Assembly (NCBI GenBank): GCA_961205875.1
Contig: OY540818.1
Location: 1,596,001 to 1,660,000, forward strand
DNA length: 64,000 bases
Reading direction: 5' to 3'
Source: Sialis fuliginosa
Taxonomy: Eukaryota > Arthropoda > Insecta > Megaloptera > Sialidae
Shown here: one piece after another, positions 2,464 through 56,132 of the stretch
Layout: every line of letters begins with the position of its first letter
Numbering within the stretch: position 1 is the stretch's first letter
The notes under the pieces: generated by a model
The model's input: the letters and a program-made list of their open reading frames with translations, nothing else
Told to the model about the DNA's origin: nothing
The model's database searches: none
Position numbers and translations under genes: made by a program

Positions 2464-2795
2464 CTGGTGATGACTTCCGGGTAGCACCGCGCTCCAAGTT
2501 GTCCTCTTGACGACGTTTCGGTCGAATCCTATCGGCCATCTTCAGGTCTGGTCTAAACTGGGTTCTTTGAACTTCGTTTGTCGACTGACTACCGTTTTGT
2601 GCGTTTGCTCTCGCTTATATACTAGTCGAGCGATGTTCTGATTGGTCGGTGTAGCGTCACGTGTTGTGGTGTTGATGACGTCAGTAGTGTTCGTGTTTGT
2701 GTCTTGCGTGTTACGTTGCGTAACTCTCGTTTGGGATCTGGTAATGCGTTGTTGTGGAGGATTACGTATGTTGGTGACGTCTGTGATCTTGGTGT
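2461..2795 (-). repeat. 3' pseudo-LTR of full-length Penelope-like element
   Basis: This 335-bp segment recurs at 5388-5722 with a constant offset of 2927 bases and no difference that I could find. In the minus orientation of the element it is the 3' copy. It holds the stop codon of the ORF and a hammerhead-like motif. Its outer edge abuts a TA run (2437-2460). Confidence 0.9.
2509..2548 (-). ncRNA. hammerhead ribozyme-like motif in 3' pLTR
   Basis: On the minus strand CTGAAGA (2545-2539), T, an imperfect helix II (GGCCGA with TCGACC, one C-A mismatch) and GAAACGTC (2519-2512) give the minimal Penelope-type hammerhead. The very short palindromic ACGT helix III is of the kind thought to act as a dimer. 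Helix I is GAC/GTC. Predicted cleavage falls between 2512 and 2511. The TGA stop of the ORF (2544-2542) lies inside the core. Confidence 0.6.
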
Positions 2796-5466: not shown

Positions 5467-5722
5467 CTTCAGGTCTGGTCTAAACTGGGTTCTTTGAACT
5501 TCGTTTGTCGACTGACTACCGTTTTGTGCGTTTGCTCTCGCTTATATACTAGTCGAGCGATGTTCTGATTGGTCGGTGTAGCGTCACGTGTTGTGGTGTT
5601 GATGACGTCAGTAGTGTTCGTGTTTGTGTCTTGCGTGTTACGTTGCGTAACTCTCGTTTGGGATCTGGTAATGCGTTGTTGTGGAGGATTACGTATGTTG
5701 GTGACGTCTGTGATCTTGGTGT
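5388..5722 (-). repeat. 5' pseudo-LTR of full-length Penelope-like element
   Basis: Direct copy of 2461-2795. It contains the presumed promoter, the hammerhead-like motif and the ATG of the ORF. The outer edge runs straight into a TA array (5721-5768), as at the other end. Confidence 0.9.
5436..5475 (-). ncRNA. hammerhead ribozyme-like motif in 5' pLTR
   Basis: Same sequence as 2509-2548. CTGAAGA is at 5472-5466 and its last A is the first base of the ORF start codon (5466-5464). Predicted cleavage between 5439 and 5438 is about 27 bases downstream of that ATG, so self-cleavage would remove it from the downstream RNA. Confidence 0.6.
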
Positions 5723-6516: not shown

Positions 6517-7449
6517 TCAATTGGTCTCATCATCACCTTCTTCCATTAAAGAATCTTTACTTTCGGTGGCTAGTGGTACTGCTCCGATATTATACGTACA
6601 AATTTGATCGATATGTCTTTTCCATTCAAAATTATCAATAGTTTTGACAATATACAGATGACTGCCTAATATTTGTATAATTTTTGCTTTAGTCCATGTA
6701 GGACGTTTAAACCGATAATCCTTTACCAAAACGGTATCATCAATATCAAACATTATATTACGTTTACCTTTATAATTAATTATTTGTTTGTATTGATTAG
6801 CTAATACAACATTTTCCGTTGATGGAGTAATACGATCTAATTTGCACCTTATTTGTTTATTCAATAACAATTTTGCAGGACTTTCTCCTGTAGAACTTTG
6901 TACAGTATTTCTATAATAATGCAAAAATCTATTGATAACCAAACTCAATTCTTCTGTACCCTTTTGTTGACGCGCCCTTAATATACAATTTTTAATTATT
7001 TTAACAGCGCTTTCAGCCTGACCATTAGATGACGGGTGATAAGGAGCTCCTATTAGCGATTTTATTCCATTCGCTTTATAATAATTTTGGATTTCATCTG
7101 AAGTGAACTGTGTCCCTCTATCACTCGTTATCTCCACTGGCAAACCGAAACGTGAGAAACACTCTCTAAATTTATTTATAGTGCTCGTTGATGAGATTGA
7201 ATTCATTATAAAACATTCTATCCATTTTGAATGTGCATCAACTATTATAAGAAAATATTTATTACAAAATGGACCTAAAAAGTCAACATGTAATCTATAC
7301 CAAATTTTATTTGGCCAATTAAAAACTTTCAAATTAGCTTTTGGCGGTGAAGCCTTAAATGGAATGCATGCCTCATATGAACGAGCCAACGTTTCTACGT
7401 TTTGGTTTAAGTTAGGCCACCACACATACGATCGTGCTAAGTTTTTCAT
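6517..7449 (-). pseudogene. Ty3/gypsy integrase region of truncated pol
   Basis: This 310-codon frame carries the DDE integrase core: HVDFLGPF (first Asp), TSDRGTQF (second Asp) and NGQAESAVKII (Glu), with the chromatin-end sequence KIIQILGSHLYIVK after it. It joins the RT/RNase H frame upstream at 7450, where the reading frame shifts by one base and the upstream frame runs into TAA. The pol protein is therefore split. It would act in a nuclear pre-integration complex if intact. Confidence 0.85.
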
Positions 7450-7451
7450 TT

Positions 7452-8908
7452 TTACATTCCCATATGTGTGGAATGTAATTCATTTAAAATCATATAATGC
7501 AATTTTGAAGGTGGTACCACTCTATATCCCCACAATATACAACCTTGTTCAATAGTTAATTCATTTCTCCTTATTGCATAAGGTTGTAACTCTTTTGAAT
7601 ATTTAATATCTGGCCACCCTGTTAATATAAATTTAGTCACTTTTGACAAAATTGGATCTCTTTCAGTTTCTCGTTTTATTTTACTACAATCTAAATTAAA
7701 TTGACTTTCTTCTACATATTTTAAATAACAAAAATCTGATTTTTCTGTATCAGCTTTGGATACAGGCATTCGTGATAACCAATCTGCTCGATTTTTAGCG
7801 GAAGGTACATATTTTATTTCATAATTATAACAGGATAATATTATAGCCCATCGTTGAAGACGACTAGCTGCGAGCTCTGGTATACCTTTTTTATCTCCAA
7901 ATATTGTCAACAGTGGCTTATTATCAGTTGTTAACTGAAAATTACGGCCAAATAAATATTGATTAAACTTTTTGAGACCAAATATAACTGCTAATGCTTC
8001 CCGTTCAATTTGAGCATAATTACGTTGTGCTGAATTTAACACTTTTGAAGCAAATGCAATTGGTTTTTCTTCCCCTCCGGGATATACATGACTAATCATA
8101 GCTGAAATTCCAACAGCACATGCATCAACTGTCAAATTGATCGGTTTATTTATATCATAATGATCCAAAACTTTATCTGACACTAACATTTCTTTAGCTT
8201 TTTTAAAAGCTATTTCACATTTATCAGTCCAATTCCATCTAATACCTTTATGCAGTAAATTATACAGCGGATGTAATATAGATGCAAGATTAGGTAAAAA
8301 TTTGTCGTAATAATTAATTGACCCCAAAAATGATCTTAATTCATTAACATTATTAGGAGCTGGTGCCTTTTGCACTGCCTCTAATCGCTCTTTAGTCATA
8401 CTTATGCCGTTTTTATCAATTACGTGCCCTAAATATGTAACCGAAGTTTGAAAAAATTGGCATTTTTCTAACTTTATTGTTAGCCCACATTCTTTCAAAA
8501 CATTCAACACCCTTAATAGTCTATCTGAATGTTCCTGTCTTTTACGTCCTGTTATTAACAAATCGTCTAAGAAACATGCGACTCCTGGTATTTTAACTAA
8601 AATACTTTCCATCATTTGTTGAAATAATGATGGTGCTGAATTAATGCCGAAGCATAATCGTGTTGATTTAAATAGACCTTTGTGTGTGGAAAGTGTAACT
8701 AGTTTTTGCGACTCCTCAGTTAATGAAACTTGTTCATATGCTTGACGCAAATCTAATCTAGTAAACTCTTCTCCTCCCTGTAATATTTCGAACAAGTATT
8801 CGATTCTAGGTAAAGGATGTTTTGCCAACTCTAAACACGGATTTAATGTGACTTTAAAATCACCACATATTCTTATTGAACCATCCAATTTAGGTATCGG
8901 CACAATAG
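7452..8908 (-). pseudogene. Ty3/gypsy reverse transcriptase-RNase H, 5' truncated
   Basis: The frame starts inside RT at PIPKLDGSIRICGDFK; the preceding fingers, protease and gag are gone. RT motifs visible are FTRLDLRQAYEQ, LCFGINSAPSLFQQ and the catalytic CFLDDLLITG. RNase H follows with TVDACAVGISA, IEREALAVIFGLKKF and TTDNKPL, then the spacer before integrase. The true left limit is the deletion junction near 8908, where sequence changes to the LTR remnant. The frame ends at a one-base shift next to the integrase frame. Similarity is to the K02A2.6-like gypsy branch. Confidence 0.9.
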
Positions 8909-9240
8909 GTTAGATACATAACAATGTTTAATACAAAAGTTTCATGGTTTCGAGGGGGCTCAATACTGACAATATGGGTTGACCTTGAAAAGGTCACCTC
9001 AATGGGTTTTCAGGTTCAACTTTTCTTTTTCAAATCTAAACCTATATTTTCTTCCTCTTGTAATTTTTCTAAAAAATGTATAGTTTTCGAGTAAAAAATT
9101 ATTGAATATCCAGAAATGTTTTTTTGCATGCATTTTCTGCAACAAAAAATATAGAAAAGTTGAACCTGAAAACCCATTAAGGTGACCTTTTCATGGTCAA
9201 CCCCAATCCGTTGGAAAGTCTTTAAAAAAACACCGGTATA

Positions 9241-11901: not shown

Positions 11902-12060
11902 TGTTTCATGCTTTGCTTAGTGTGATTAAAAGGATGCTTATCCTAATGAAAAACTATTGTATATTATAATAATTCTTTATTCACATAATCTTACAATCAT
12001 GCTCTGAGTGGCTTATTCGTGTGAACCTAGTCACTGGTCTGTAACAGTGTTCACCAAACA
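11902..12060 (-). repeat. 3' LTR of Ty3/gypsy element 2
   Basis: A 159-bp repeat on the plus strand from TGTTTCATGC to TTCACCAAACA, matching 16492-16665. The adjacent minus-strand polypurine tract is a long A run ending GAGAAGT (plus 12061-12085). Confidence 0.9.
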
Positions 12061-14702
12061 ACTTCTCTTTTTTTTTTTTTTTTTAATCTTCCAGTCTTCG
12101 GTTTCTTTAAAACTCTTCCCGATCTACTTGTCTTCAATGTTGGCTCTTGCTTTTGAATGACGTTGGGTGTAGTACTATTCTCTATATTTGTAGATCTCGT
12201 ACTGGTTGCATCGTTCTTACATTCCTCTTGTTTATAAGCGCTTGTCTTTACTTCAGTTTGATTTGAGCGTGTTTTTTCAGGTTCTTTTTGAGTTGTTGTG
12301 CTATCTGAAGAATGAGTGGTTTGTTTTGCTTGAGGTAATGTGTCTTCTTTGTTTATTTCTTCTTTTGGTATTGGTTTTATCCAGTTTCTGTTTCTTCTAT
12401 ACTTGCTTCCGTTTATATTAACTTCGTATGACCTTTCTGAAAGTATGTTTGTTATTTGTCCTTTCTTCCATTTTTTTTCTATATTGTTGTATGGCTTTAT
12501 TCTTACTTCTTGTCCTATTTCTAGACTTGGTAAATCTTTCGCTTGTTTGTCATAATAAAATTTGTTGTGTTGCCTTTTTTTGATTATATTTTCAACTACC
12601 TTGGTTTCTATTTTTTGTCTTAGTAAATTATCGTGGATTGGTAGAACATTCCTGGTTCTTCTAGCAAAAAGTCTCTGTGCAGGACTTGAATCCATGTCGA
12701 TAGTTGGAACGTTTCTCCATTTTAATATGTTCAGTCTTAAGTCTTCATTGTTACTTTTTGTCTTCATAATTAGTTTCTTAATTATTTTGACAGCTGATTC
12801 TGCTTTACTATTTCCTTTGCTGTGGTATGGTGATGACGTTGCGTGTATGAATTTCCATTGCATAGCAAATTGTTTAAATTCTTCGCTGATTAAATTTGCT
12901 GCGTTGTCTGAAATCAAAACTTTTGGCGTTCCATGAATTGAAAAATATAGCTTGCAATATTTAATAATGGTTGACGTTTTTGTGTTGTCTAGTTTATTAA
13001 ATTCAAAATAGTCTGAATAGTAATCAACTAATACAATGTAGTCTTCTTTTTCAATTTCAAATAAATCGATTGCGACCCTTTCCCATGGCAATGTTGGAAT
13101 TTGGTGCGATTGCATTTTTTCTTTCGGTTGATTTGTTGTAAATTCGTTACATATGGAGCAGCTTGTCGTTATATTTTTAATGTCATTTGACATGTTTATC
13201 CAGAAAATATTATCTTTTGCCCATCTTATTGTTGAATTTATTCCAAGATGTATTGAATGTAAATTTTTTAGCATTTCACTTTGTAACATTTTCGGTATCA
13301 ATATTCTTCCTGATTTAAAAATTAATCCATCTTGTATGGTTAGATCATCTCTGTATTTCTTGAATTTTTGCAGTTCAGGTAAGTTATTGTTATCATATAA
13401 TGTACCATTTACAATAGCATTCTTTAGTAAGTTTAATTCTTCATCTTTTAATGTAATTTCTTTTATTTTTATTAAGTCATCATTTTTAATATTTAAATCT
13501 TCACATAAATTTATTTTTTCAAATTCAGTATAAATAGTTTCATTTATGTGATTAATGATTTCTAAATTTTGATTTGAAGTTTTCTGCTTATTGTTTTGTG
13601 CTATTGCTCTGGATAAAATATCTGCAATATACATTTCACTTCCTTTTTTGTGTTTAACTATTAAATCATATCTTTGTAATCTTAACAACATCCTTTGTAT
13701 TCTTTTGGGTGCTGATAAAATAGAATTCTTGAAAATAGTTTCTAATGGTTTATGATCAGTTTGTATCATAATTGACTTTTTACCTGTAATGTATTGTTGG
13801 AATCTCTCACATGCGAAAACTATACTAAGACATTCTTTTTCAATTTGTGCGTATTGCTTTTCTGTTTCTGTAATACTTCTTGATACAAATGTTACAGGTC
13901 TACCTTCTTGCAATAATGTAGCTCCTAGTCCTTTTAAACTTGCATCACATTGTATTGTAATTGGTTTGCTTGAATCATAATATGCTAAAATAGGTGCTTG
14001 CTTAGTTAATTCTTTGATGGTATTAAAAGCTATGCTATGTTCTTTTTTCCATTCATAATTTGAATTATTTTTAGTTAAATTTCTCAGTGGTTCACTTATT
14101 TTGGATAGTGATGGTAAATATCTTGATAAGTACGTTGTAAAACCTAGAAAACTTTTAACTTCTTGTTTATTTTTAGGTATTTGCATATCATTTATACCTT
14201 GAATTTTCTTTGGATCTGCTCTTAACCCTTTTGTTGAAAAAATATTTCCTAAATAGGATACTTCTTTTAGTCTTAACTTGAGTTTACTTACGTTAAATCC
14301 TAAGTTTGCTTTTTCTGCTCGTTTCAACAATTTTTCTAATTTAATATCATGATCTATTATTGCTTCATCTTCTGTTTTTCCTTTTCCTATTATTAATATA
14401 TCATCTGCTATTATTTCTATACCTTGTAAATCTTGAAATATTTCATGTAATCTTCTTTGATATTCTTCGGACGCTGTCTTTATTCCGAAAGGTAATCTTA
14501 ACCAGTAATATCTTCCAAATGGTGACCAAAATGTAGTTAACTTTGCACTTTCTGGGCTAAGTTTGACATTCCAAAATCCATTTTTTGTATCTAGTACTGA
14601 AAATATTTTGCATTGGTTAAATTTGGCGTAATTTCTTCGATTGTTGGTATTTGATATTCTGCACGTTTGATGGCTTCGTTTAAGTTTTGTGGATCCATAC
14701 AA
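12051..14702 (-). pseudogene. Ty3/gypsy pol: RT (3' part), RNase H, integrase
   Basis: This 883-codon frame starts in mid-RT after a one-base shift near 14595. It carries FSVLDTKNGFWNVKL, RLPFGIKTASEEYQ, the catalytic IADDILIIG, RNase H (IQCDASLKGLGATL, IEKECLSIVFACERF, QTDHKPLE), an HHCC zinc finger (HSIHLGINS...CSICNEF), the integrase DDE residues (VAIDLFEI, ISDNAANL, SKAESAVKIIK) and a basic C-terminus. The frame runs into the 3' LTR. The first 30 or so residues are out-of-frame translation and not protein. Apart from the shift it is intact. Confidence 0.92.
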
Positions 14703-16375
14703 ATTCTCAATTTTGCATTTTTATTAACTAAAACTATATTGCTGATCCATTCTGTTGGCTCGGTAACTTTTCGAATAATTTTCATTTCTTCTAATTCTTT
14801 AAGTTTTTCTTTTAATGGCTCCATATAACATATTGGAATACGTCTTGGATATTGCTTAACTGGTGTAATGCTTTCATCTATTTCTATCTTGTATTCTCCT
14901 GGCATACAACCTGTTCCATTAAAAATATGTAAGTATTTGCTTATGACCGTATCATTCATCACATAATTCGATGGAATGTTTTCATAAATTTGGTTAATAT
15001 TTGCTTTTACTTCTAATAAATTCATTTCCATGCATGTACTTGCTGATATTAACGTACAATCACTTAATTCTACGACTTGAAACAATAGTTCATAAATTTT
15101 GTTCTTATGCTTACAGTTTAATATAATTTTACCCAATGGTATGATTATTTCACCTCCGTAGCATTTTAATTTAACTTTTGTTCGTTTCAGCTTTGGCTTC
15201 TGTCCTAAAATTAATCTTACATTTTTTAAACTTATTACATTTACCGATGCTCCTGTATCTAATTGACATTTGATTGTTGTTTTCTTATCATTTGCTTGTA
15301 ATTCTAAATCTGTTATGATTTTATCTTTTCCTTTGATATTAGCAACATCTTCTATTAGATATGTCTCTTCTTCTTCTGATTCTAAAGAATATTCTTCAAT
15401 TTCTTTAACATTTTGCTTTGTTTGTCTGTTTTCTTGTAGACATACTTTGCTGAAGTGATTTGCTTTTCCACAGTTTGTGCATAATTTACCGAAGGCTGGA
15501 CAGCTTTTCTTGCAATGTTTATGGATTGTTCCGCAGTATTTACATTTAATTTCTTTTTTTGTATTCGCTTGTTCGAAATACTTTTGCTTATATCCACTGC
15601 TTTTGCTTTGCTTTTCTTTATATTTTTTCATTTTACTTATTTCTGCTTCTAAGTTTTCTGTATTGCTGCTTGACGTTTTTAGATTATTTAATTGTTTGTC
15701 TGATAGCTCTTTTGATTTACATCTATTTATTGCTTGGTCTAATGTAATATTTCTGTCCATCCACAATGCTTCTCTAATCTTGACGTCTTTTATCGAACTT
15801 ATTATTTTGTCTAGTAAAATGTCTTCTGCTATGTGTCCATATTGGCAATTTTTTATTAGTTTTCTTAGTCTGTTGAAGTAGTCGTCATAACTCTCCTGTT
15901 GTTCTTGATATGCTAGGTTGAAAATTGCTCTTTCGTACCTTTTGTTTACTTCTGGTATTATGTTTCTTCCTATTGCTGCTAGTACTTTGTCCGCTGTTGT
16001 CTTATCTTCTTCTGCTATGGGTAGATTATCGTATCGTTTAAAAATATCTTCACCTATTGCTGTTAGTAGGATTGCTATTTTTTCTTGTTCCGATTTATGT
16101 TGTTATCCACTAGCTATTTGATAATTGTCCCACGTTAATTTAAAATGTTTGAAGTTTTCACTAATATCTCCTTCATTTATTTTAATTGGATTAGGTAGCG
16201 GTATGTTTATGTTGTTAACATTGTTATTTTGTACATTTAAACGTTGCATTAGGTCTTTTATTTGTGTTTCTAGCGTTATTATTTTGTTTTCCATTGTTGT
16301 GCTTTTTTCTTTATGTTCACACTTTTGTTTTATCTTATTGTTTACACTTGTGTTTTTTTTTCTTTTTGCTTGCAC
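14591..16375 (-). pseudogene. Ty3/gypsy gag-protease-RT (5' part), with in-frame stop
   Basis: One minus-strand frame runs from the ATG at 16375 to TAG at 14591. It is broken only by TAA at 16105-16103, after IASG; no other stop lies between 16102 and 15766. The capsid-like part is followed by zinc knuckles (CKYCG...; CTNCGKANHFSKVC, a CX2CX4HX4C knuckle), an aspartic protease with LDTGASVNVIS, then the RT fingers (KLRICMDPQNLNEAI). The frame ends where a one-base shift moves RT into the next frame. The products would form virus-like particles and mature the polyprotein. Two lesions make this copy defective. Confidence 0.85.
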
Positions 16376-31540: not shown

Positions 31541-31639
31541 ATTTGTTCTTCTAAAATATCTAATTTACTTGGACTAATAATGTTTATGTAAGTTACATAC
31601 ACAAAAAATCGTAAGATATTATATTAGTTAAGTAAAACC

Positions 31640-32821
31640 GTGATAACTTGTTGCACAGAGAAACAAGTTCCAAAGTACAGAGGCATTGAAGGTAATAAAC
31701 GGGGCACCGACTATCACTACTACGTGGCGATGTCTCTGTGTCTGGAGGGGCATCAACTAAAACAAGCCAATCCCGACTACGAGTTTAAATTACACCAAGA
31801 GGACAAAGAGGCCGGTATGTTTGACGATTTAGTGTACGAGTATAGAAACAACCAAAGTGAACCTTGGACACGTCTACTCGTACAAATAAAAAACAAGAAA
31901 TCTGTCAACACGATCAAGACAAGCAATCTTCTCTTCGATGGAAAGAATGAAACTTTTAGTTTAATAAAGTTTTTGAAATCTTCCCAAGAAATCCAAAACA
32001 CTGATAATGGGAGTAGTTGTTTTATTATATACACGAATACAAGTTTTGAATTCGAACAAAATGGACACCTGAGAAAATTGTATAAAAAAGAAACGAAAGA
32101 AGAAATATCTTTACTTCCATCTAAAGTCAACTGTATCCCTATATTTAATACTGGATATCAGTTTAAATTTAATGAAGAAATAAACGTTGATATATTTTAC
32201 AAACACACAAACATTGCTAAAGAAGAGTGGAAACAGTTCTTTAGCAAGCTTGTGTTTGTTGTCGGTCAGCCGGATCTTAAAGAAATAACAAGTATTGTAG
32301 AAAATAAAATTGAAGAAATTTTACCTAAATCAACATCACAAATATGGAAAGGATTAAACAAGATGCTAAATGGCTCTTTATATAAAAATATCACAGAAAT
32401 TACATCAAACGAAATAGCAAAATTATTTAAAACTACTGAAATAGACATTCAATCAGTTTGTGATAATAAATACGAAGAAAGTAAGCTAGATTTTGAAAGC
32501 AGTATACCATTGTACGATTTTCTTAAATCAGATTATATTATATTTCCTATTAAATTTGAAAATTCTGAATTTACCCTTCACAAAATTTGTCAACTAATAA
32601 AAAAATTGAGGGAAGAGAAATGTGATATAAAAAAATTCACTATGAAACATGTGTACGGCATTAAGCAAGTGACTGATATAGAAACTGCAACTACATTTAA
32701 CCTTGTAATAATAGTTATTCAAAGTAATGAACAATTAATTACATTTAAATATATTCCAAAAATGGATCGACAAAAATACATCATTGTAATTTCAAAAGTA
32801 CTAGTTACCCGAATTGACTAA
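31640..32821 (+). CDS. Nuclease-like N-terminal module of a STAND NTPase (PD-(D/E)XK-type, tentative)
   Basis: A 393-codon frame. Residues 14-37 (RGIEGNKRGTDYHYYVAMSL) form a Gly/Tyr-rich helix opening. FDDLVYEY at 61-68 and LLVQIKNKK at 79-87 give the order Asp-Asp ... Gln-x-Lys, which fits a restriction-type PD-(D/E)XK core like the effector nucleases (for example DUF4297/Cap4-type) fused to NTPases. No ATG precedes the conserved part: the frame opens at a TAG at 31625 and the first ATG is at residue 33. The start is therefore missing or lies on an upstream exon; TTGCACAG at 31651-31658 is an acceptor-like site. The end overlaps the NACHT frame by 17 bases in the +1 frame. Function is inferred from motifs only. 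Confidence 0.55.
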   Translation: MITCCTEKQVPKYRGIEGNKRGTDYHYYVAMSLCLEGHQLKQANPDYEFKLHQEDKEAGMFDDLVYEYRNNQSEPWTRLLVQIKNKKSVNTIKTSNLLFDGKNETFSLIKFLKSSQEIQNTDNGSSCFIIYTNTSFEFEQNGHLRKLYKKETKEEISLLPSKVNCIPIFNTGYQFKFNEEINVDIFYKHTNIAKEEWKQFFSKLVFVVGQPDLKEITSIVENKIEEILPKSTSQIWKGLNKMLNGSLYKNITEITSNEIAKLFKTTEIDIQSVCDNKYEESKLDFESSIPLYDFLKSDYIIFPIKFENSEFTLHKICQLIKKLREEKCDIKKFTMKHVYGIKQVTDIETATTFNLVIIVIQSNEQLITFKYIPKMDRQKYIIVISKVLVTRID

Positions 32822-35800
32822 TTGTCATTCAATCTATGAAGATAATGAAAACACATTCCAGAAGTTATCCAAGGTCTCTAAACAATATGTTTTAGAGAAA
32901 ACATGCGTGTCTTTTAATGGTCATAAGTCAAGTTTCGGAGAAATTCTTAATGTGAATAATTCAAATTTAACAGAAGAACAAGAGAAGGAACTAAGTAAAG
33001 TAATAACAGGTGATATTTTGACACATTTCCTCGTTGACGATAACAAATATTTAGAAATAAATGTTAATCATCCAAGCATTAATGTATTCGACTCTAACTC
33101 GTATATAAAATTGAATTACACAGCAGTGATAGCAGAAAATGAAATGAAGGAATTTAAAGAAAAGTACATAATCGACAGTTTACTAAATTTTGAATGTCAG
33201 TGCAATGAAAACCCAAATCTTACAATTCATCATTTTAAAAAATACAAAAAGACATTGGTGTGGGATCAAAGTAATGGTGATATAACATACTTAAGAAATG
33301 TTATCAACAAAAACAGAGCTGCTAATAACTGCAATACAATTGAATCTTTTGATAAAATGTATGACTATCTAACAAACTTAAGAGAAATCACCAACATGAA
33401 CATTGCTTTAGATGGTTTAATAACTCAACGGGAGAAGAAATCCACAGGCTTTGTAATAAGCGAAGATAGGCTGTGCAGTGGTAATAACAAAGTAGTAATA
33501 ATAGCAGATAAACCCGGAATGGGAAAAACTTTACTAATGAGTAATTTATTTAAAAATCTGCAGTTGAAGCATCCTAATAATATAATAATTAGGCTAAATC
33601 TTAACGACCACACGACCGCATTTAATGAAAACCCTAGCTTTGATAAACCGGAAATTTCTCTAGGTTTTCTAAAAAATAAGTTATTAACAAAATCTTCTCC
33701 ATTATCACACAGCATTTTGACTTTTTTATTGAAAAAACAACACCTAATATTTTTATTACTGGACGGAGTAGATGAACTATGTCCTGACTATAGAAATATA
33801 ATATTCGATTTCATTAAATCACTTAATAAATCAAAATATGTTAAATTGATTGTGACAACAAGGCCAGCACAAAAAAACAGTTTAGAAGAAATAACGTCTC
33901 AATTTGCGCTATCAATAAAACCGTTTACTAAGAAAGATAAGTTATCATATTTGGATAAAGTTTTAATAGGAACAGATAGAGACGCTGCAAACACATTGTT
34001 AGAGCAAATTAATAAAAAATCTAACTTAAAAGAACTATTAGGAGCCCCCCTGTTATTAAGAATTATTACTGAAATTATAAATAGTTCAAATGAAAAGGAT
34101 TTTAATATTGAAGAAAATTTAAATTTTTCAGAATTATTCAAAACATTTGTTAAGCAAAAATTTTCAATTCATTCACTTGAAAAAAAGAAACAGGACGAAA
34201 CTAATACATATGTTAAAGGTGATGATGAAGAGTTACAAATAAGTTATCATAAAAAACACGAATATTTGGCAATGAAGTTGCTCTTTGAAGAAATCGAAAA
34301 TAATGAAGAACTAAATGAAAATACTACAAATAGAATAATAAAAGTAGGTATAATTACACAAATCATAGACCAGAAAGCAGAATTTATTCATAGAACTTTT
34401 GCCGAATATTTTTCATCGACTTTTATACACACACACTTCAATGAAGATTGGGTACTCAAATTATTATTTGAAAATGTATTAATAGAAAATGATTTGACAG
34501 CTCTAAGAAAATTCATAAACAATAACATTCCTAAAAAAATTATAGAAGAAACAAAAACAAAGTACAGAAAATTTGTTAGGGACAATTACACAAATGTTAA
34601 AGAAAAAAATCCATTATTAAGTATTTTATACACAGCTTCATATGAAGATAACTTGGCAACTTTAAAATTCATTTTAGAGAATTTTTTAGAATATCAAATT
34701 ACTTTACAAAAATTGCTTTCTTATAAATCAAATAAAACGGAATTAATACCTCTTGAAGCTGCAATTAGAAACGGAAACAAGGAAATAACAAAACAACTTA
34801 TAAACATTTGTATTGAACAAATTAAACAGGAAAATAATCTAGCATTCCAATATCTGTTGGGTAAGGGTAACGCACATGGTAATACAGCGTTACATACAGC
34901 CGCACTTAAGGGTCAAAAAGATACTATGAATTTACTGTTAGACAAGGGGACAAACATTAACAATGCCGGTAATAGCGGAGAGACTGCGTTACATCTTGCC
35001 GCCCTTGGAGGTCACAAAGACATTGTGAGTTTGCTGTTAGATAGGAGGGCAAACATTAACAGGGTATATTATGACGGATTTACAGCGTTACATGCAGCTG
35101 CAATTGGAGGTAACAAAGAGGTTGTGAGACTACTGTTAGAAAATGGGGTAAACATTAATATGAAGAATAAAGACGGAGTTACCGCGTTACATACAGCCGC
35201 ATCTAGAGATCACAAAGACGTTGTGGGTGTATTGTTAGATAAGAGAGCAGACATTAACATGTCAGATAAAAACCGATTTACAGCGTTACATGCAGCCGCG
35301 ACTGGAGGTCACAAAGATGTTGTGAATGTACTGTTAGATAAGGGGGCAGACATTAACATGTCAGATAAAAACGGATTTACAGCGTTACATGCAGCCGCGT
35401 CTGGAGGTCACAAAGATGTTGTGAATGTACTGTTAGATAAGGGGGCAGACATTAACATGATGAATAAAGACGGAATTTCAGCGTTGTATGTAGCTGCGTC
35501 TACAGGTCACAAAGACGTTGTGGGTGTATTGTTAGATAAGAGAGCAGACATTAACATGTCAGATAAAAACGGATTTACAGCGTTACATGCAGCCGCGACT
35601 GGAGGTCACAAAGATGTTGTGAATGTACTGTTAGATAAGGGGGCAGACATTGACATGGCAGATAAAGACGGATTTACAGCGTTACATGCAGCCGCGTTTG
35701 ATGGTTATAAAGACGTTATGAGGGTATTGTTAGATAAGGGGGCAGACATTAACATGATGAATAAAAACGGAGTTACGGCGTTACATGCAACCGCATCTAG

Positions 35801-37007
35801 AGGTCATAAAGACATTGTGAGTGTACTGTTAGATAAGGGAGCAAACATTAACATGACGGATAAAGACGGATTTACAGCGTTCCATGCAGCCGCGTTTGGT
35901 GGTTATAAAGACATTGTAAGTGTATTGTTAGATAAGGGGGCAAACATAAACATGATGAATAAAAACGGAGTTACGGCGTTACATGCAACCGCATCTAGAG
36001 GTCATAAAGACATTGTGAGTGTACTGTTAGATAAGGGAGCAAACATTAACATGACGGATAAAGACGGATTTACAGCGTTCCATGCAGCCGCGTTTGGTGG
36101 TTATAAAGACATTGTAAGTGTATTGTTAGATAAGGGGGCAAACATAAACATGATGAATAAAAACGGAGATACGGCGTTACATGCAACCGCATCTAGAGGT
36201 CATAAAGACGTTGTGAGTGTACTGTTGGCTAAGGGAGCAGACATTAACATAATGAATAAACTTGGCGATACAGCATTATATTCAGCCGCCTTGAACGGCC
36301 ACAAAGATGTTGTGAGTGTACTGTTACATAAGGGGGCAGATATTAACATTATGAATAAAGACGGAATTTCAGTGTTGCATGCAGTTGCGTTTGTCGGTTA
36401 TAAAGACGTGAGTGAACTTTTATATAAGGCAGACATTAATATGTCGGATAAAAATGGATTTACAGTGTTACATGCTGCCACGTGTGGTGGTCACAAAAAT
36501 TTTGTAAGTGTACTGTTAGATAAGGGGGCAGACATTAACATTATGAATAAATACGGAGAAACAGCGCTATATTTAGCTGCCTTCAACGGTCATAAAGACA
36601 TTGTGAGTGTATTGTTAGATAAGGGGGCAAATATTAACATGATGAATAAAAATGGTGTTGCAGCGTTACATGCAGCCGCATCTAGTGGTCACAAAGACGT
36701 TGTGAGTGTATTATTAGATAAGGGGGCAGACATTAACATGGCGAATAAAGACGGAAGTACAGCGTTGCATGCAGCCGCATCTAGAGGTTACAAAGATGTT
36801 GTGAGTGTATTGTTAGATATGGGGGCAGACATTAACATTATGAATAAAAACGGAGTTACGGCGTTACAAACAGCCGCATTTAATGGCCACAAAGATGTTA
36901 TGAGTGTACTGTTAGATAACGAAGCAAACATTAACATGGCGAATAAAAACGGAAGTACAGCGTTGTATGCAGCCGCATCTAGTGGTCACAAAGATGTTTT
37001 AAGTTAA
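32805..37007 (+). CDS. NACHT STAND NTPase with long ankyrin-repeat array
   Basis: Counted from 32814, 1397 codons. Residues 1-225 are an unassigned linker. The NACHT ATPase follows: Walker A ADKPGMGKT (about 231-240), Walker B LLLDGVDEL (about 313-321), sensor-1 region IVTTRP (about 345-350), helical and winged-helix parts ending in HRTFAEYF (about 526). Ankyrin repeats begin near residue 684 and give about 21-22 units of 33 residues (pattern DGFTALHAAASGGHKDVVSV then LLDKGADIN). Such proteins switch from an ADP-bound resting state to an oligomer when the repeats sense a ligand. There is no ATG at the start and no intron. It lies one frame from the nuclease-like frame, so the two probably belong to one protein. 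It ends at TAA 37005-37007, which replaces a CAA seen in sister repeats. It is probably cytosolic, since no signal peptide or membrane segment is seen. Confidence 0.85.
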   Translation, partial: LPELTNCHSIYEDNENTFQKLSKVSKQYVLEKTCVSFNGHKSSFGEILNVNNSNLTEEQEKELSKVITGDILTHFLVDDNKYLEINVNHPSINVFDSNSYIKLNYTAVIAENEMKEFKEKYIIDSLLNFECQCNENPNLTIHHFKKYKKTLVWDQSNGDITYLRNVINKNRAANNCNTIESFDKMYDYLTNLREITNMNIALDGLITQREKKSTGFVISEDRLCSGNNKVVIIADKPGMGKTLLMSNLFKNLQLKHPNNIIIRLNLNDHTTAFNENPSFDKPEISLGFLKNKLLTKSSPLSHSILTFLLKKQHLIFLLLDGVDELCPDYRNIIFDFIKSLNKSKYVKLIVTTRPAQKNSLEEITSQFALSIKPFTKKDKLSYLDKVLIGTDRDAANTLLEQINKKSNLKELLGAPLLLRIITEIINSSNEKDFNIEENLNFSELFKTFVKQKFSIHSLEKKKQDETNTYVKGDDEELQISYHKKHEYLAMKLLFEEIENNEELNENTTNRIIKVGIITQIIDQKAEFIHRTFAEYFSSTFIHTHFNEDWVLKLLFENVLIENDLTALRKFINNNIPKKIIEETKTKYRKFVRDNYTNVKEKNPLLSILYTASYEDNLATLKFILENFLEYQITLQKLLSYKSNKTELIPLEAAIRNGNKEITKQLINICIEQIKQENNLAFQYLLGKGNAHGNTALHTAALKGQKDTMNLLLDKGTNINNAGNSGETALHLAALGGHKDIVSLLLDRRANINRVYYDGFTALHAAAIGGNKEVVRLLLENGVNINMKNKDGVTALHTAASRDHKDVVGVLLDKRADINMSDKNRFTALHAAATGGHKDVVNVLLDKGADINMSDKNGFTALHAAASGGHKDVVNVLLDKGADINMMNKDGISALYVAASTGHKDVVGVLLDKRADINMSDKNGFTALHAAATGGHKDVVNVLLDKGADIDMADKDGFTALHAAAFDGYKDVMRVLLDKGADINMMNKNGVTALHATASRGHKDIVSVLLDKGANINMTDKDGFTAFHAAAFGGYKDIVSVLLDKGANINMMNKNGVTALHATASRGHKDIVSVLLDKGANINMTDKDGFTAFHAAAFGGYKDIVSVLLDKGANINMMNKNGDTALHATASRGHKDVVSVLLAKGADINIMNKLGDTALYSAALNGHKDVVSVLLHKGADINIMNKDGISVLHAVAFVGYKDVSELLYKADINMSDKNGFTVLHAATCGGHKNFVSVLLDKGADINIMNKYGETALYLAAFNGHKDIVSVLLDKGANINMMNKNGVAALHAAASSGHKDVVSVLLDKGADINMANKDGSTALHAAASRGYKDVVSVLLDMGADINIMNKNGVTALQTAAFNGHKDVMSVLLDNEANINMANKNGSTALYAAASSGHKDVLS
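35757..36152 (+). repeat. Two identical 198-bp units (two ankyrin repeats each)
   Basis: 35757-35954 and 35955-36152 appear identical base for base, including silent positions, whereas neighbouring 99-bp repeats differ at many sites. This is a recent in-frame tandem duplication. Confidence 0.9.
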
Positions 37008-37034
37008 CTGTTACATAAGGGGGCAGACATTAAC

Positions 37035-37244
37035 ATGGCAAATAAAGACGGATTTACAGCGTTACATGCAGTCGCGTCTGGAGGTCACAAAGATGTTGTG
37101 AGTGTATTGTTAGATAAGGGGGCAGACATTAACATTATGAATAAATACGGAGGTACAGCGCTATATTTAGCTGCCTTCAACGGTCGTAAAAACATTGTGA
37201 GTGTATTGTTAGATAAGGGGGCAAATATTAACATGATTGAATAA
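37035..37244 (+). pseudogene. Ankyrin array segment after the first premature stop
   Basis: It continues the frame of the NACHT gene after TAA at 37005-37007 for about two more repeats, then runs into TAA because one extra base (near 37235) shifts the frame. It is part of the same ancestral array, not a separate gene. Confidence 0.8.
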
Positions 37245-38808
37245 AAATGGTGTTGCAGCGTTACATGCAGCCGCATCTAGTGGTCACAAAGACGTTGTGA
37301 GTGTATTGTTAGATAAGGGGGCAGACATTAACATGACAGATAAAGACGGATTAACAGCATTACATACAGCCGCGTTTGATGGTTATAAAGACATTGTGAG
37401 TGTATTGTTAGATAAGGGGGCAGACATTAACATGGCGAATAAAGACGGATTTACAGCGTTACATGCAGCCGCATCTAGTGGTCACAAAGACGTTGTGAGT
37501 GTATTGTTAGATAAGGGGGCAGACATTAACATGGCGAATAAAGACGGATTTACAGCGTTACATTCAGCCGCGTCTGGAGGTGACAAATATGTTGTGAGTG
37601 TATTGTTAGATATGGGGGCAGACATTAACATTATGAATAAAAACGGAGTTACGGCGTTACAAAAAGCCGCATTTAATGGTCACAAAGATGTTGTGAGTGT
37701 ACTGTTAGATAACGAAGCAAACATTAACATGGCGAATAAAAACGGAAGTACAGCGTTGTATGCAGCTGCATCTAGTGGTCACAAAGATGTTGTAAGTCAA
37801 CTGTTACATAAGGGGGCAGACATTAACATGGCGAATAAAGACGGATTTACAGCGTTACATGCAGCCGCATCTAGTGGTCACAAAGACGTTGTGAGTGTAT
37901 TGTTAGATAAGGGGGCAGACATTAATATGGCGAATAAAGACGGATTTACAGCGTTACATTCAGCCGCGTCTGGAGGTGACAAATATGTTGTGAGTGTATT
38001 GTTAGATATGGGGGCAGACATTAACATTATGAATAAAAACGGAGTTACGGCGTTACAAAAAGCCGCATTTAATGGTCACAAAGATGTTGTGAGTGTACTG
38101 TTAGATAACGAAGCAAACATTAACATGGCAAATAAAAACGGAAGTACAGCGTTGTATGCAGCCGCATCTAGTGGTCACAAAGATGTTGTAAGTCAACTGT
38201 TACATAAGGGGGCAGACATTAACATGGCAGATAAAGACGGATTTACAGCGTTACATGCAGCCGAGTCTGGAGGTCACAAAGATGTTGTGAGTGTATTGTT
38301 AGATAAGGGGGCAGACATTAACATTATGAATAAAAAAGGTGTTGCAGCGTTACATGCAGCCGCATCTAGTGGTCACTAAGACGTTGTGAGTGTATTGTTA
38401 GATAAGGAAAGCGACATTAATATGATGAATAAAGACGGACTTACAGCGTCACAAATAGCCGCGTCTGGAGATCACAAAAATGTTGTGAGTGTGTTGTTAG
38501 CTAAGTAGGCCAACATTAACATTGAGGATAAAGTCTGAATTACATCTTTACAAACAGCCGCATCTGGAAGTCACATAAACGTAGTGAGTGTACTGTTAGC
38601 TAAGGGGGCAGACATTAACATGGCGGATAAAGATGAATTTACGGCGTCACAAACAATCGTGTCTTGAGGTCAGAAGGACGTTGTGATTGTACTGTTTTAT
38701 AAGAGAGCAGACACTAACATGATGAATTTAATCGGATTTACAGCGTCACCTTTAGATGATCATAGAAATCACCATGATATAAGATTATTCTTACAAGGAA
38801 ACCTTTAG
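37237..38808 (+). pseudogene. 3' ankyrin array and C-terminal cap, multiply interrupted
   Basis: About 14 further ankyrin repeats run to TAA at 38377 (an AAA-to-TAA change in a GHKD unit). The same frame continues with TAG 38506, TGA 38536 and TGA 38665, then a non-repeat cap (DDHRNHHDIRLFLQGNL) ending in TAG 38806-38808. That is the likely original C-terminus of the gene. The repeats after 38380 are visibly more diverged than those before. Confidence 0.75.
37432..38223 (+). repeat. Two 396-bp units (four ankyrin repeats each)
   Basis: 37432-37827 and 37828-38223 are tandem copies with only a handful of differences (for example AATATGG/AACATGG). They show a second, larger recent duplication in the same array. 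Confidence 0.9.
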
Positions 38809-39014
38809 AAGTGGCATATTCAGATCGAGTTTAAATTTTGTATATAGTTAGAGGGGGTCATGACTAGTAAGGAAAACAATATCTTAGCTGTGGTAAAACG
38901 GTTTAAACGGGTGAAACACCCCTATGAAAATGTGCAAAATAATGATATATTTCAAATAACTCTGAAACTAATGAAGATTTTTAAAAATCTATAATATGAA
39001 TTTTTTATGATTTT
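38809..39014. other. Spacer between the two ankyrin genes
   Basis: AT-rich, without ankyrin similarity. It follows the natural-looking stop of the first gene. Confidence 0.5.
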
Positions 39015-40014
39015 TTGTGCTCTTTCAAAATAATAAATAAGATTGTGAGTAAGAGGGCAGATAACATAATGGATAAATACGATAAGGTATCGTTACAGAA
39101 AGCCGCCCTCGGAGGCAGCAAAGATGTGGTGAGTTTACTGTTAGATAAAGGAGTTGACATTAACACTGGGGATAAATCTGGTATGACAGCGTTACATACA
39201 TCCGCCGTTGAAGGTCACAAAGATGTTGTAAGTGTATTGTTAGATAAGGGAGTAGACATTAACATGATGGATAAATTCGGCCAGACAGCGTTGCATACAT
39301 CCGCGTATGGAGGTCACATAGACGTTGTTAGTTTACTGTTAGATAAGGGGGCAAACATTAACATGGTGGATAAATCTGGTATGACAGCGTGTCATAAAGC
39401 TTCCATTACAAATCGCAAAGATGTTGTGAGTGTAGATAATGTTAGATAATGGAGTAGACATTAACATTGCGGATAAATCCGGTATGACAGCGTTACATGT
39501 AGCCACTATTAGAGATCACAAATATGTTGTGAGTTTGTTGTTAGATAATGGGGCAAACATTAACATGGTGGATACATACGGTGATACAACGTTTAATTTA
39601 GCATATAGAACTGGTGATTACAAACTAGTAAAGTTGCTATTGACACATGGTGATTATCTGTATGACAATGATAACAGTGATAGTGATAGTGATAGTGAAT
39701 TACCTACAGAACTACAGTGCGCTGTGTGGAGACGTCGGTCTAAGTACGTGGAGTACTTGCTATATACAGGTTGTGATATAAACGCAGGTGACAGTCACAA
39801 TAGAACGCCCCTATATTGGGCTGCTCTGCTCGGTGATTGCGGTATGTTGAGACTATTGTTGAGAGAAGGTGCCGATGTGAACATTACAGACATTAATGAC
39901 TCAACAGTTCTACAAGCTTCGTTTAGGTCCGGTAATTACAAAGCAGTCCAAATGTTACTTAGACACAATAGTAATCTTTATAATTATTATGGTAGTGACA
40001 GTGACAGTGAGTAA
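39015..40014 (+). pseudogene. 3' part of a second ankyrin-repeat gene (two frames)
   Basis: Two frames, 39015-39449 and 39439-40014, hold about eight ankyrin repeats (DKSGMTALHTSAVEGHKDVV). They are separated by a local duplication (GATAATGTTAGATAATG) that shifts the frame near 39433. The last repeats are more diverse (LLYTGCDINAGDSHNRTPLY, LLLREGADVNITDINDS), and Asp-Ser runs (SDSDSDSE, GSDSDSE) occur twice, the second at the C-terminus. There is no NACHT domain here, so it is a 5'-truncated paralogue or a relic of a tandem gene array. Confidence 0.7.
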
Positions 40015-46134: not shown

Positions 46135-46433
46135 GTAAGTACAGGTTTCCAACTAATTCTTTCACAAAATTGTGCAGTACTTATTAGTTTTCAATCCACC
46201 TTGTAGTTTTTGCTTGCCAGTTATTTCACATTATTTTTTTTGTAATATTTTATCTTCCAAGTGACCATGGGGCAGATTTGATCAAAACAAACGGGGCTGA
46301 TTTGAACGGGACGTTCAAATGTGCCCCGCCCCCGGCTTAAATGCAAACTTTAAATGTTTTCTAATACATGTATTCTAAATGTAATAATTAATTGTAATTA
46401 AATGCATCACTAACTGTAATTCATTATTTATAG
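46135..46433 (+). other. Predicted 5' UTR intron of the pogo-like transposase
   Basis: CAC|GTAAGT at 46135 is a consensus donor and TTATTTATAG (AG at 46432-46433) a consensus acceptor. The ATG lies one base after the acceptor. Length is 299 bases. Confidence 0.5.
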
Positions 46434-46434
46434 A

Positions 46435-47778
46435 ATGGTTAGAACATACAAAAAGAAGCGGGAACTTACAATTAATGAAGATGATGTCCAAAATGCTGTT
46501 TTATGCGTCATCAACGGAACTATGAAACTTAGAAGAGCTGCAGATGCATATGGACTGACGCCGAGTACACTCTTCTATCGAGTTAAAAAATATAAAGAAA
46601 ACATAGCTCCAAGAAGTGAACTATTTTCAAGTAAATACACTGTTGCTCAGGTATTTACCAATGACGCGGAAAAAATGCTTCAAAATTACCTCTTGACAAG
46701 ATCAAAAATGAACTATGGCCTTACCTATAAAAGTGCAAGATCATTAGCTTTTGAATATGCAACAGCTCTTAATAAATGTCCTGCAAAATGGACTGAAAAC
46801 AAACTGACAGGCATAGAGTGGATGAAAGGATTTATGAAGAGGCACAAAAGCATTTCTTTGCGAAAGCCTGAGAACACGAGTCTTTCAAGATCCGCAAGTT
46901 TCAATAAACATAATGTGTCAGTGTTTTACGATAATTACGAAAGGGCTCTGCAGAAGACCCACTTTACTCCAGACCGAATTTTTAATTTGGATGAGACCAA
47001 TATCATGACGGTGGTGCAAGCACTTAACGTGATTGCACACACCGGTATAAAACAGGTAGGTCAATGTGTGTCAGCAGAGAGAGGCCAGCTTATAACAATG
47101 TGCGCCATAGTCAATGCAACAGGTAATACTGTTCCACCTGTTTTCATATTTCCAAGGGCACGATTTCATGAAGCTATGATTCATGGTGTACCACCAGGAA
47201 GCGTTGGTTATACAAATAGCCCAAAGAGCGGATGGATGACCGGCCCTTTATTTCTTAAGGTACTGCAACACATAAAAAAATTCACAAGATGTAGCAAAGA
47301 TGACAGAATACTGTTATTATTTGACAACCATGAAAGCCACTGTACGTTAGATGCAATTAATTACTGTCGATATAATGGTATTGTTGTTGTCACATTCCCT
47401 CCCCATTGCACACACCAGATGCAACCCTTAGATATTGCCGTCAATGGTCCATTTAAACAAAAAATTTCAGTAGCACAAAATGATTGGTTGCTCGAACATC
47501 CTGGTAGAACTACAACGATACATGATCTGCCAGCCATTGTGACTCCAGCATACAATGCATCTCATACGCCTAAAAATATATTATCAGGCTTTACACGACC
47601 AGGAATATATCCATTTAACCGTAATGCATTTACGGACGATGATTTCCAATGTGCAGAAGTCACGAATCGTCCTCAACCTGACATATCTGCCGGAAATGAG
47701 GGGCCCGTGATAGCAAATGCTATCACTGGTTTACATATGTCACAAACTACATCTCTCGCACCAAAGGAAACTGATTAG
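46435..47778 (+). pseudogene. pogo/Tigger-like DDE transposase, main part
   Basis: 447 codons. An N-terminal psq-type helix-turn-helix (about residues 10-55, MKLRRAADAYGLTPSTLFYR) is followed by a CENP-B-type region and a DDE_1 domain. Catalytic Asp residues sit at 186 (FNLDETNI), 297 (LLLFDNHESH) and 333 (HQMQPLDIAV), a DD35D spacing. The C-terminal third continues in another frame after TAG at 47776, so the copy is broken. It would cut and paste the element in the nucleus at TA targets. Start context is GAATGGTT. Confidence 0.9.
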
Positions 47779-55101: not shown

Positions 55102-55144
55102 TTACAGCTGTAGTGATGATGAGCCATCATCACTACAGCTGTAA
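55102..55144. repeat. Perfect 20-bp hairpin inside the PIN-like gene
   Basis: TTACAGCTGTAGTGATGATG (55102-55121), AGC, then its exact complement (55125-55144). The left arm looks like a templated inverted copy of the right arm. In the frame that continues into the gene it creates tandem TGA stops. Confidence 0.9.
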
Positions 55145-55167
55145 CTGCTGCCTCTACCTATGATATA

Positions 55168-55842
55168 GTGGTAGTCGTTGGTGAGGACATTGACTTGCTG
55201 ATCATCCTTACTGCGATCTCAAACCAACATGAAATTTTTTACAATAAATGTGGAAGAGGCAAAGCATCAGATGTCATGTATTCCAGCATCGCTTCTTCAA
55301 AATCCTCTTTGAAACCAGAGCTTTTCCTCTTCATCCATGCCTTTAGTGGTTGTGACTATCCTTGTTGGTCGACATCCTACTTCTTTGGCTTAGGGAAGAT
55401 GCAAATGATGTCCATAGTCGAAAAAAATCCGGACGTTGAAAAGCAAGCTGCGATTTTTCTCGACAACAACTCTACACTTGACGAGATAGCAGCAGCAGGA
55501 GAGCGAGTCATAATTGCTCTATACGGAGGCAACCCCAACACCCATAACTTTGACGAGTTGCGGTACCAACTATTCACCAGGGCTGCGACGAAAACCAGCT
55601 TCAATCTAGCCAGGTTACCTCCTACACGAGACTGCTCGATTTCACTGCTTGCGGACATACCATCAGGTAAAAATTTGTCCTTGCATCAGTTACATATCAT
55701 TCATCATTTTCTATTCTCATGTACAATCTTCTTAAAGGTACAGGCGTGGTTGGGAATCACACTGAACCCTCTCTCCTGGGGGTGGATATCCACGTCACAA
55801 GGCCTCAATCCCAAAATGATGACCAACACCTCTTACGGATGA
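55168..55842 (+). pseudogene. PIN/XPG-like nuclease fragment, transposon-borne
   Basis: The frame opens before 55168: in-frame codons back to about 55127 read TTAVTAASTYDIVVVVGEDI. VVGEDIDLLIIL and, about 55 residues on, FIHAFSGCDYPC match the acidic pairs of FEN1/XPG-type PIN nucleases (ED.D ... GCD). Later LPPTRD and VQAWLGITLNPLSWGW are the conserved linker seen in this arthropod family. After WGW the frame diverges and stops; the CXC part continues in another frame, so a shift lies near 55780. There is no ATG at the start. Nuclease function is inferred from motif order. Confidence 0.55.
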
Positions 55843-56132
55843 TTTCTTGTGGCTGCACGAAGGGTTGTGGGAACGCGTGCAGCTGCAGGAAGGCAGGATT
55901 AAAATGCTCATCAGTCTGCAGGCACTGCAGCGGGGTCTCTTGTGACAATATACCTGATGTTGCAGAAGTAGATATCCCAGAAGGCGACGATCTGTCCGAT
56001 GTCGAAATGGAGGATGACTTGTGGGCACAAGACGTCGACGATTCATCACCATCCCCTGATGGGGATATGCCATCCCAATACGTACAGATACGGACGAACC
56101 TCAACCGGGACCTTTCAAGAGGGCTAAATTAA
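55719..56132 (+). pseudogene. CXC-type cysteine-rich C-terminal module of the same gene
   Basis: The real homology starts near 55840: LLRMISCGCTKGCGNACSCR then KAGLKCSSVCRHCSGVSC, a tesmin/TSO1-like run of paired Cys residues (C.C..GC...C.C...GL.C...C..C.G..C) expected to bind zinc and DNA. An acidic tail ending TAA at 56132 follows. It is separated from the PIN-like part by a frame change. Confidence 0.6.

Follow-up and report, generated by a model that had tools for sequence, protein, structure and literature searches.

Does an insect genome carry a gene that joins a nuclease-like domain, a NACHT ATPase and an ankyrin-repeat sensor in one protein? To our knowledge, insects are commonly said to lack receptors of the NLR type. 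The question was raised by a locus of Sialis fuliginosa, in which a first-pass annotation had read these three parts in this order; it is taken up here in a window of 64,000 nucleotides, the whole stretch of DNA that was analysed. If such a receptor is real, arthropods would share with bacteria a defence that is cell-autonomous and self-destructive, and the bacterial Cap4 effectors would be linked with animal immunity.

Two open frames make up the main part of the locus. The first, 31628-32821 (397 codons), holds the N-terminal part with the motif set RG..Y...VA, FDD and Q-x-K, and the second, 32805-37007 (1400 codons), holds the NACHT and the ankyrin repeats and encodes ADKPGMGKT, LLLDGVDEL, TTRP and HRTFAEYF. 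The motifs FDD, QIK and these four, all named in the first-pass annotation, were read directly at the coordinates it had quoted, with FDD at 31820-31828 and QIK at 31883-31891, both in the frame of 31628-32821. The proposed single order of nuclease, NACHT and ankyrin repeats is present on the strand, but the N-terminal motifs and the NACHT lie in two different frames, which overlap just at 32805-32821. Nor does the frame stay open to 38808 as had been proposed; it meets a stop at 37005-37007, a frame-shifting unit of 100 nt at 37154-37253, and further stops from 38377. The first frame offers no ATG ahead of the domain, its earliest one being that of YVAM, and this calls for a first exon further upstream to be assumed; we infer that the N-terminal domain starts at 31658, after a plausible AG acceptor. 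The features are as follows.

31658-32062 (+): putative N-terminal nuclease-like core, RGTDYHYYVAM followed by FDD and QIK (motifs; hhalign to a Cap4-type profile; decoys and shuffles)
32063-32821 (+): remainder of the first open frame, without a known domain (open frame; weak matches only)
32805-32821 (+): overlap of the two frames and site of the break, by a 1-nt indel or a short intron (reading frames, GT-AG pairs)
33492-33962 (+): NACHT ATPase, Walker A ADKPGMGKT and Walker B LLLDGVDEL (Pfam PF05729; alignment with three bacterial NACHT proteins)
34883-38746 (+): ankyrin array, 39.1 copies of a 99-nt unit (Tandem Repeats Finder; Pfam ankyrin families)
37005-37007 (+): first in-frame stop within the array (reading frames)
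37154-37253 (+): frame-shifting repeat unit, 100 nt long (unit walk)
38343-38746 (+): array end, decayed and interrupted by several stops (reading frames, unit list)
39000-40014 (+): second, shorter ankyrin block in two frames, with acidic SDSDSE stretches (open frames, Pfam, repeats)

The last of these blocks, in which Tandem Repeats Finder places a second short array at 39119-39582, is perhaps the old C-terminus of the NACHT-ankyrin gene, or perhaps a neighbouring fragment.

That the locus encodes a predicted NACHT STAND NTPase with ankyrin repeats is supported by family models. The NACHT scores 39.0 bits against the curated cut-off of 26.7 for Pfam PF05729 (E 9.5e-10, residues 230-386 of the frame 32805-37007), and both the Walker A and the Walker B motif are present. 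The same frame gives 637 bits for Pfam Ank_2 (E 2.4e-196). No death-fold or leucine-rich-repeat (LRR) family, as in NLRs of the vertebrate type, was found in the frames scanned with Pfam; the assumed upstream exon lies outside those frames. One PDB match of the NACHT part, to a designed protein at E 7.9e-4, was taken as chance.

By tblastn at E up to 1 the NACHT part matches 4 phage and 12 plasmid records, and all three of the 12 plasmid matches that were fetched carry a NACHT above the Pfam cut-off, with 22-25% identity when aligned. A scan of genome contigs with one degenerate Walker A pattern gave at least 16 confirmed bacterial NACHT loci (12 of these cyanobacterial by title), which are 22-34% identical to it. 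In viral contigs the NACHT part as a single query found no relative, and the NACHT alignment as query found at least three remote ones. Bacterial Avs proteins are in outline STAND NTPases with an N-terminal nuclease and a repeat sensor, and the outline here is similar; the present sensor, however, is an ankyrin array, and a PADLOC scan of both parts (31628-32818 and 32805-34920, E up to 1) matched no Avs family model and returned PDC-S02 only. With no Cap4-type motif seen by eye in the N-termini of the at least 16 bacterial NACHT loci (printed to at most the first 150 residues), the label "Avs-like" is not borne out.

The ankyrin array had been put at about 36 repeats. It is indeed long, but the count is that of the 39.1 copies found by Tandem Repeats Finder, and a unit-by-unit walk kept 39 units. 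The suggestion that its repeats turn over is supported by stretches duplicated exactly within it, of 220 nt (offset 198), 203 nt and 118 nt (offset 396). The variation among the units is not evenly spread. Residue entropy is 1.70 bits at six contact positions, which we take to be the randomised contact positions of designed ankyrins, and 0.63 elsewhere; the permutation p of 2.4e-4 for this contrast (32 of the 39 units), or 1.4e-4 with the 28 distinct units, is a guide only, because the units are related by duplication and one of the six hardly varies (K in 34 of 36 units). Variation that is concentrated at these presumed ligand-contact positions suits a sensor. The pairwise dN/dS of 0.58 among 36 of the 39 units hints at constraint; by part it is 0.49 for the 20 units that start before 37000, 0.61 for the 12 units of 37255-38344, and 0.82 for the last four, with one unit counted in both of the latter groups.

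The higher ratio in the last four units brings up the question of whether this copy is still a working gene, and we consider it an even call whether it has a function of its own or is a decaying pseudogene or a fragment of a larger family. Besides the contrast of 0.82 with 0.49, decay, on which the first-pass annotation is silent, would explain the interruptions, namely the change of reading frame within 32805-32821, the first stop in the array, the frame-shifting unit and the stops near the array end. Some of these have a milder explanation, however. The first break could stem from a short intron instead of a 1-nt indel; as many as 39 GT-AG pairs of 58-280 nt (donors from 32650, acceptors to 32959) would keep the frame open across it. 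The unit list places about 21-22 repeats ahead of the first stop, which may simply end a protein of that length. Repeat arrays are moreover prone to assembly errors. On balance, the copy is probably truncated or decaying.

What, then, is the N-terminal part? Direct searches name no nuclease, be it in Pfam, PADLOC, NCBIfam, PHROGs or the PDB sequences. The Pfam model of the Cap4 nuclease, PF14130, does not match it, and the weak Pfam matches that were obtained (Fe_hyd_lg_C at E 0.051, EKAL at 0.097 and ArgoN at 0.12; for the core, APG12 at 0.077) name no nuclease either. The best PADLOC match, PDC-S02 at E 0.0098, covers residues 308-354 of 397, outside the core. Scans of viral contigs and genome contigs gave no relatives of this part, and the tblastn matches, in 4 plasmid and 5 phage records, are all at E 3 or worse. 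One of these (H4) was rejected as a relative, being by eye an FAD-dependent oxidoreductase-like protein.

The case for a nuclease-type fold comes from comparison with a family profile. The families gathered under PF14130 (Cap4, LmuA, DUF4297, AbpA/HamA) have the order RG..Y...VA, DD, QxK in common with the N-terminal part. Bacterial members of the Cap4 family were reached through the PDB and plasmids, and the profile was built from the first 180 residues of all 11 records fetched together with two PDB fragments (13 sequences); a cyanobacterial caspase-family protein with a 47% match to part of record L024 was left out. A PF14130 scan of nine of the 11 records (L027 and L032 left out) matched seven, and L024 and L034 gave no match. 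L024 (2989-5475) is an AAA ATPase of a Nostoc plasmid, whose N-terminus matches that of the 1523-residue AAA ATPase in PDB 9n00 (34.6%, E 1e-6).

In hhalign, the N-terminal part aligns with this profile over residues 12-79 (56 columns, P 0.0081, probability 4.9%), and the aligned region covers the helix, RG..Y...VA, FDD and QIK co-linearly. Two of 216 decoys, pieces of 164 residues cut out of further open frames in the loci and the window, score higher, and none of 150 shuffles does. In hmmsearch the N-terminal part ranks first of 217 sequences (E 0.044, 7.5 bits), and the reversed sequence scores 14.6 against 22.5 for the forward one. P is 0.0048 for the first 100 residues, 0.017 for the whole 380 and 0.1 for a global alignment. 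When each of the 13 family sequences was left out in turn (the near twins L029/L032 and L030/L031 dropped together), P ranged from 0.0044 to 0.027, with 53-59 columns aligned in 9 of the 13 runs and 20-22 in four. Against L024 and 9n00 alone, hhalign gave 10 columns elsewhere, at P 0.35, and BLASTP against the 9n00 fragment found nothing.

The profile-profile comparison with the Cap4 type had been proposed in the first-pass annotation, and its outcome is mixed, as the motifs are co-linear at P 0.0081 but the probability is low and the score far below that of true members: when withheld from the profile, known members reach 37-201, against 19-24 for the N-terminal part. As read from the alignment, residues G16, D57, Q76 and K78 fall on G21, D52, Q70 and K72 of the family, so that, of the nine columns that do not vary among nine bacterial members, four are matched. 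The family-invariant G15, Q25, M36 and L37 are unmatched, the first-helix Q25 being replaced by H, and the placement of the glutamate E48 is unsure. It is worth noting how the family behaves against its own relatives. A nine-sequence profile (A2) run against the PDB reached the SAVED-domain chains 6vm5 and 6vm6, presumably Cap4 itself, at no better than E 0.096 (15.8 bits) and E 0.22 (14.6 bits), so the weak score of the N-terminal part is compatible with Cap4 membership, though no proof of it.

Predicted structures add little. AlphaFold run without an alignment gave two models of low confidence, one of 380 residues (pLDDT 36.5) and one of 135 residues (pLDDT 38.4). The longer of these low-confidence models has a helix at 18-37 and strands at 42-50, 54-63 and 71-77; in the shorter, equally low-confidence model a strand replaces the first helix. 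Foldseek with the 380-residue low-confidence model returned 217 matches at E up to 10 and none at E 0.001. Among the best 50 of the 217 no title names a restriction-endonuclease-type entry, and the sole nuclease by title is the Dicer-like DCL4 at rank 32.

Taken together, a nuclease-type fold of the N-terminal part is weakly indicated by the motifs and the profile. The nuclease N-terminus proposed at the outset is upheld in its co-linear motifs and its weak match to the Cap4-type profile, but not in the domain libraries. The receptor could also be real and its N-terminal domain no nuclease, serving instead as an adaptor, or as a nuclease-like fold that has lost its activity and brings in partners; we regard this as a serious though less than probable reading. 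The ordered line-up of RG, FDD and QxK, which scores above all 150 shuffles and all but two of the 216 decoys, speaks against it, while the silence of the libraries on any nuclease, the distance in score from true members, the four unmatched invariant columns and the uninformative structure models are what one would expect from it.

Could the two frames be unrelated neighbours, a gene of the N-terminal type followed by a NACHT-ankyrin gene? The frames do differ, and the first methionine of the second, at about residue 114, precedes the NACHT at residue 230; yet both are on one strand, with 17 bases in common, and an N-terminal domain followed by a NACHT would be the order of an effector and its switch. 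We infer that both frames are parts of one gene, and find two separate genes improbable. A recent origin from Wolbachia or its phage WO, a carrier of a NACHT-ankyrin gene, is very improbable: PMC5062602 tells of such proteins being exchanged between phage WO and arthropods, but according to the same paper the WO sequence sits inside the diversity of arthropods, neither Wolbachia nor phage WO is among the 4 phage and 12 plasmid tblastn records of the NACHT part (E up to 1) or the at least 16 NACHT loci of the genome contigs (one Walker A pattern), and the other coding elements identified by Pfam in the window are retroelements and a transposase.

We thus return to the reading we prefer, an NLR-like STAND receptor with an ankyrin sensor, a NACHT switch and a Cap4-type nuclease effector. 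The ankyrin repeats would recognise a ligand that is foreign or signals danger. On binding ATP, the NACHT might then open the protein and let it oligomerise, by which the N-terminal domains, with a diverged PD-(D/E)XK fold of the Cap4-nuclease kind, would be brought together. So assembled, they could cut nucleic acid and stop the infected cell. We judge this full mechanism to have slightly less than an even chance of being right. A broader proposal is more tentative, namely that the locus belongs to an arthropod family of NLR-like receptors whose Cap4-type effector has a common ancestry with those of bacterial CBASS, Lamassu and Hachiman, and whose fast-recombining ankyrin sensor diversifies at its contact positions like the binding surface of an antigen receptor.

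HEPN is an RNase fold unrelated to the candidate nuclease fold. HEPN-NACHT fusions of cephalochordates and cnidarians, proposed for defence in the available part of PMC3710099, nevertheless have a likeness to the present locus in bringing a nuclease-type domain to an animal NACHT protein. In the bacterial literature, the accessible portions of two sources list restriction-endonuclease (REase) effectors in conflict systems (PMC8195603) and mention Cap4, DUF4297 with HerA, and Hachiman (PMC12948488). Closer to insects, the available text of PMC5062602 describes NACHT homologues throughout arthropods and crustaceans and ankyrins in the phage WO version. Compared by description, the likeness of these proteins to ours is the NACHT and, in the phage version, the ankyrin repeats; they differ in that this text makes no mention of a nuclease-like N-terminus and gives the phage version a latrotoxin C-terminal domain. 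Among the matches listed, titles and abstract beginnings of the open-access literature report no arthropod nuclease-NACHT-ankyrin protein. As PMC5062602 already describes arthropod NACHT-ankyrin proteins, novelty would lie in the possible Cap4-like effector.

The view of a NACHT-ankyrin STAND gene in an animal-type genome, as judged from the gene and element types, is supported, and the surroundings are those of retroelements and a transposase. Five of the ten other long frames scanned with Pfam have reverse transcriptase, integrase or RNase H domains or a DDE_1 transposase. No tRNA was found in the window, nor any Rfam match at the gathering score. The G+C content ranges from 0.21 to 0.41 in 2-kb blocks of the window. 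A long frame at 2542-5541 (-), with a reverse transcriptase and a sub-threshold GIY-YIG match, resembles a Penelope-type element. At 6517-8909 (-) and 12051-16102 (-) lie two retroelements similar to Ty3/gypsy elements, each with domains for reverse transcriptase, RNase H and integrase; the frame 14591-16102 has no Pfam match. The DDE_1 transposase, with a Psq-type HTH, lies at 46420-47778 (+) and resembles a pogo/Tigger element. Further along, two overlapping frames without a Pfam match are found at 55123-56132 (+), the second of which is cysteine-rich (CGCTKGCGNACSCRKAGLKCSSVC).
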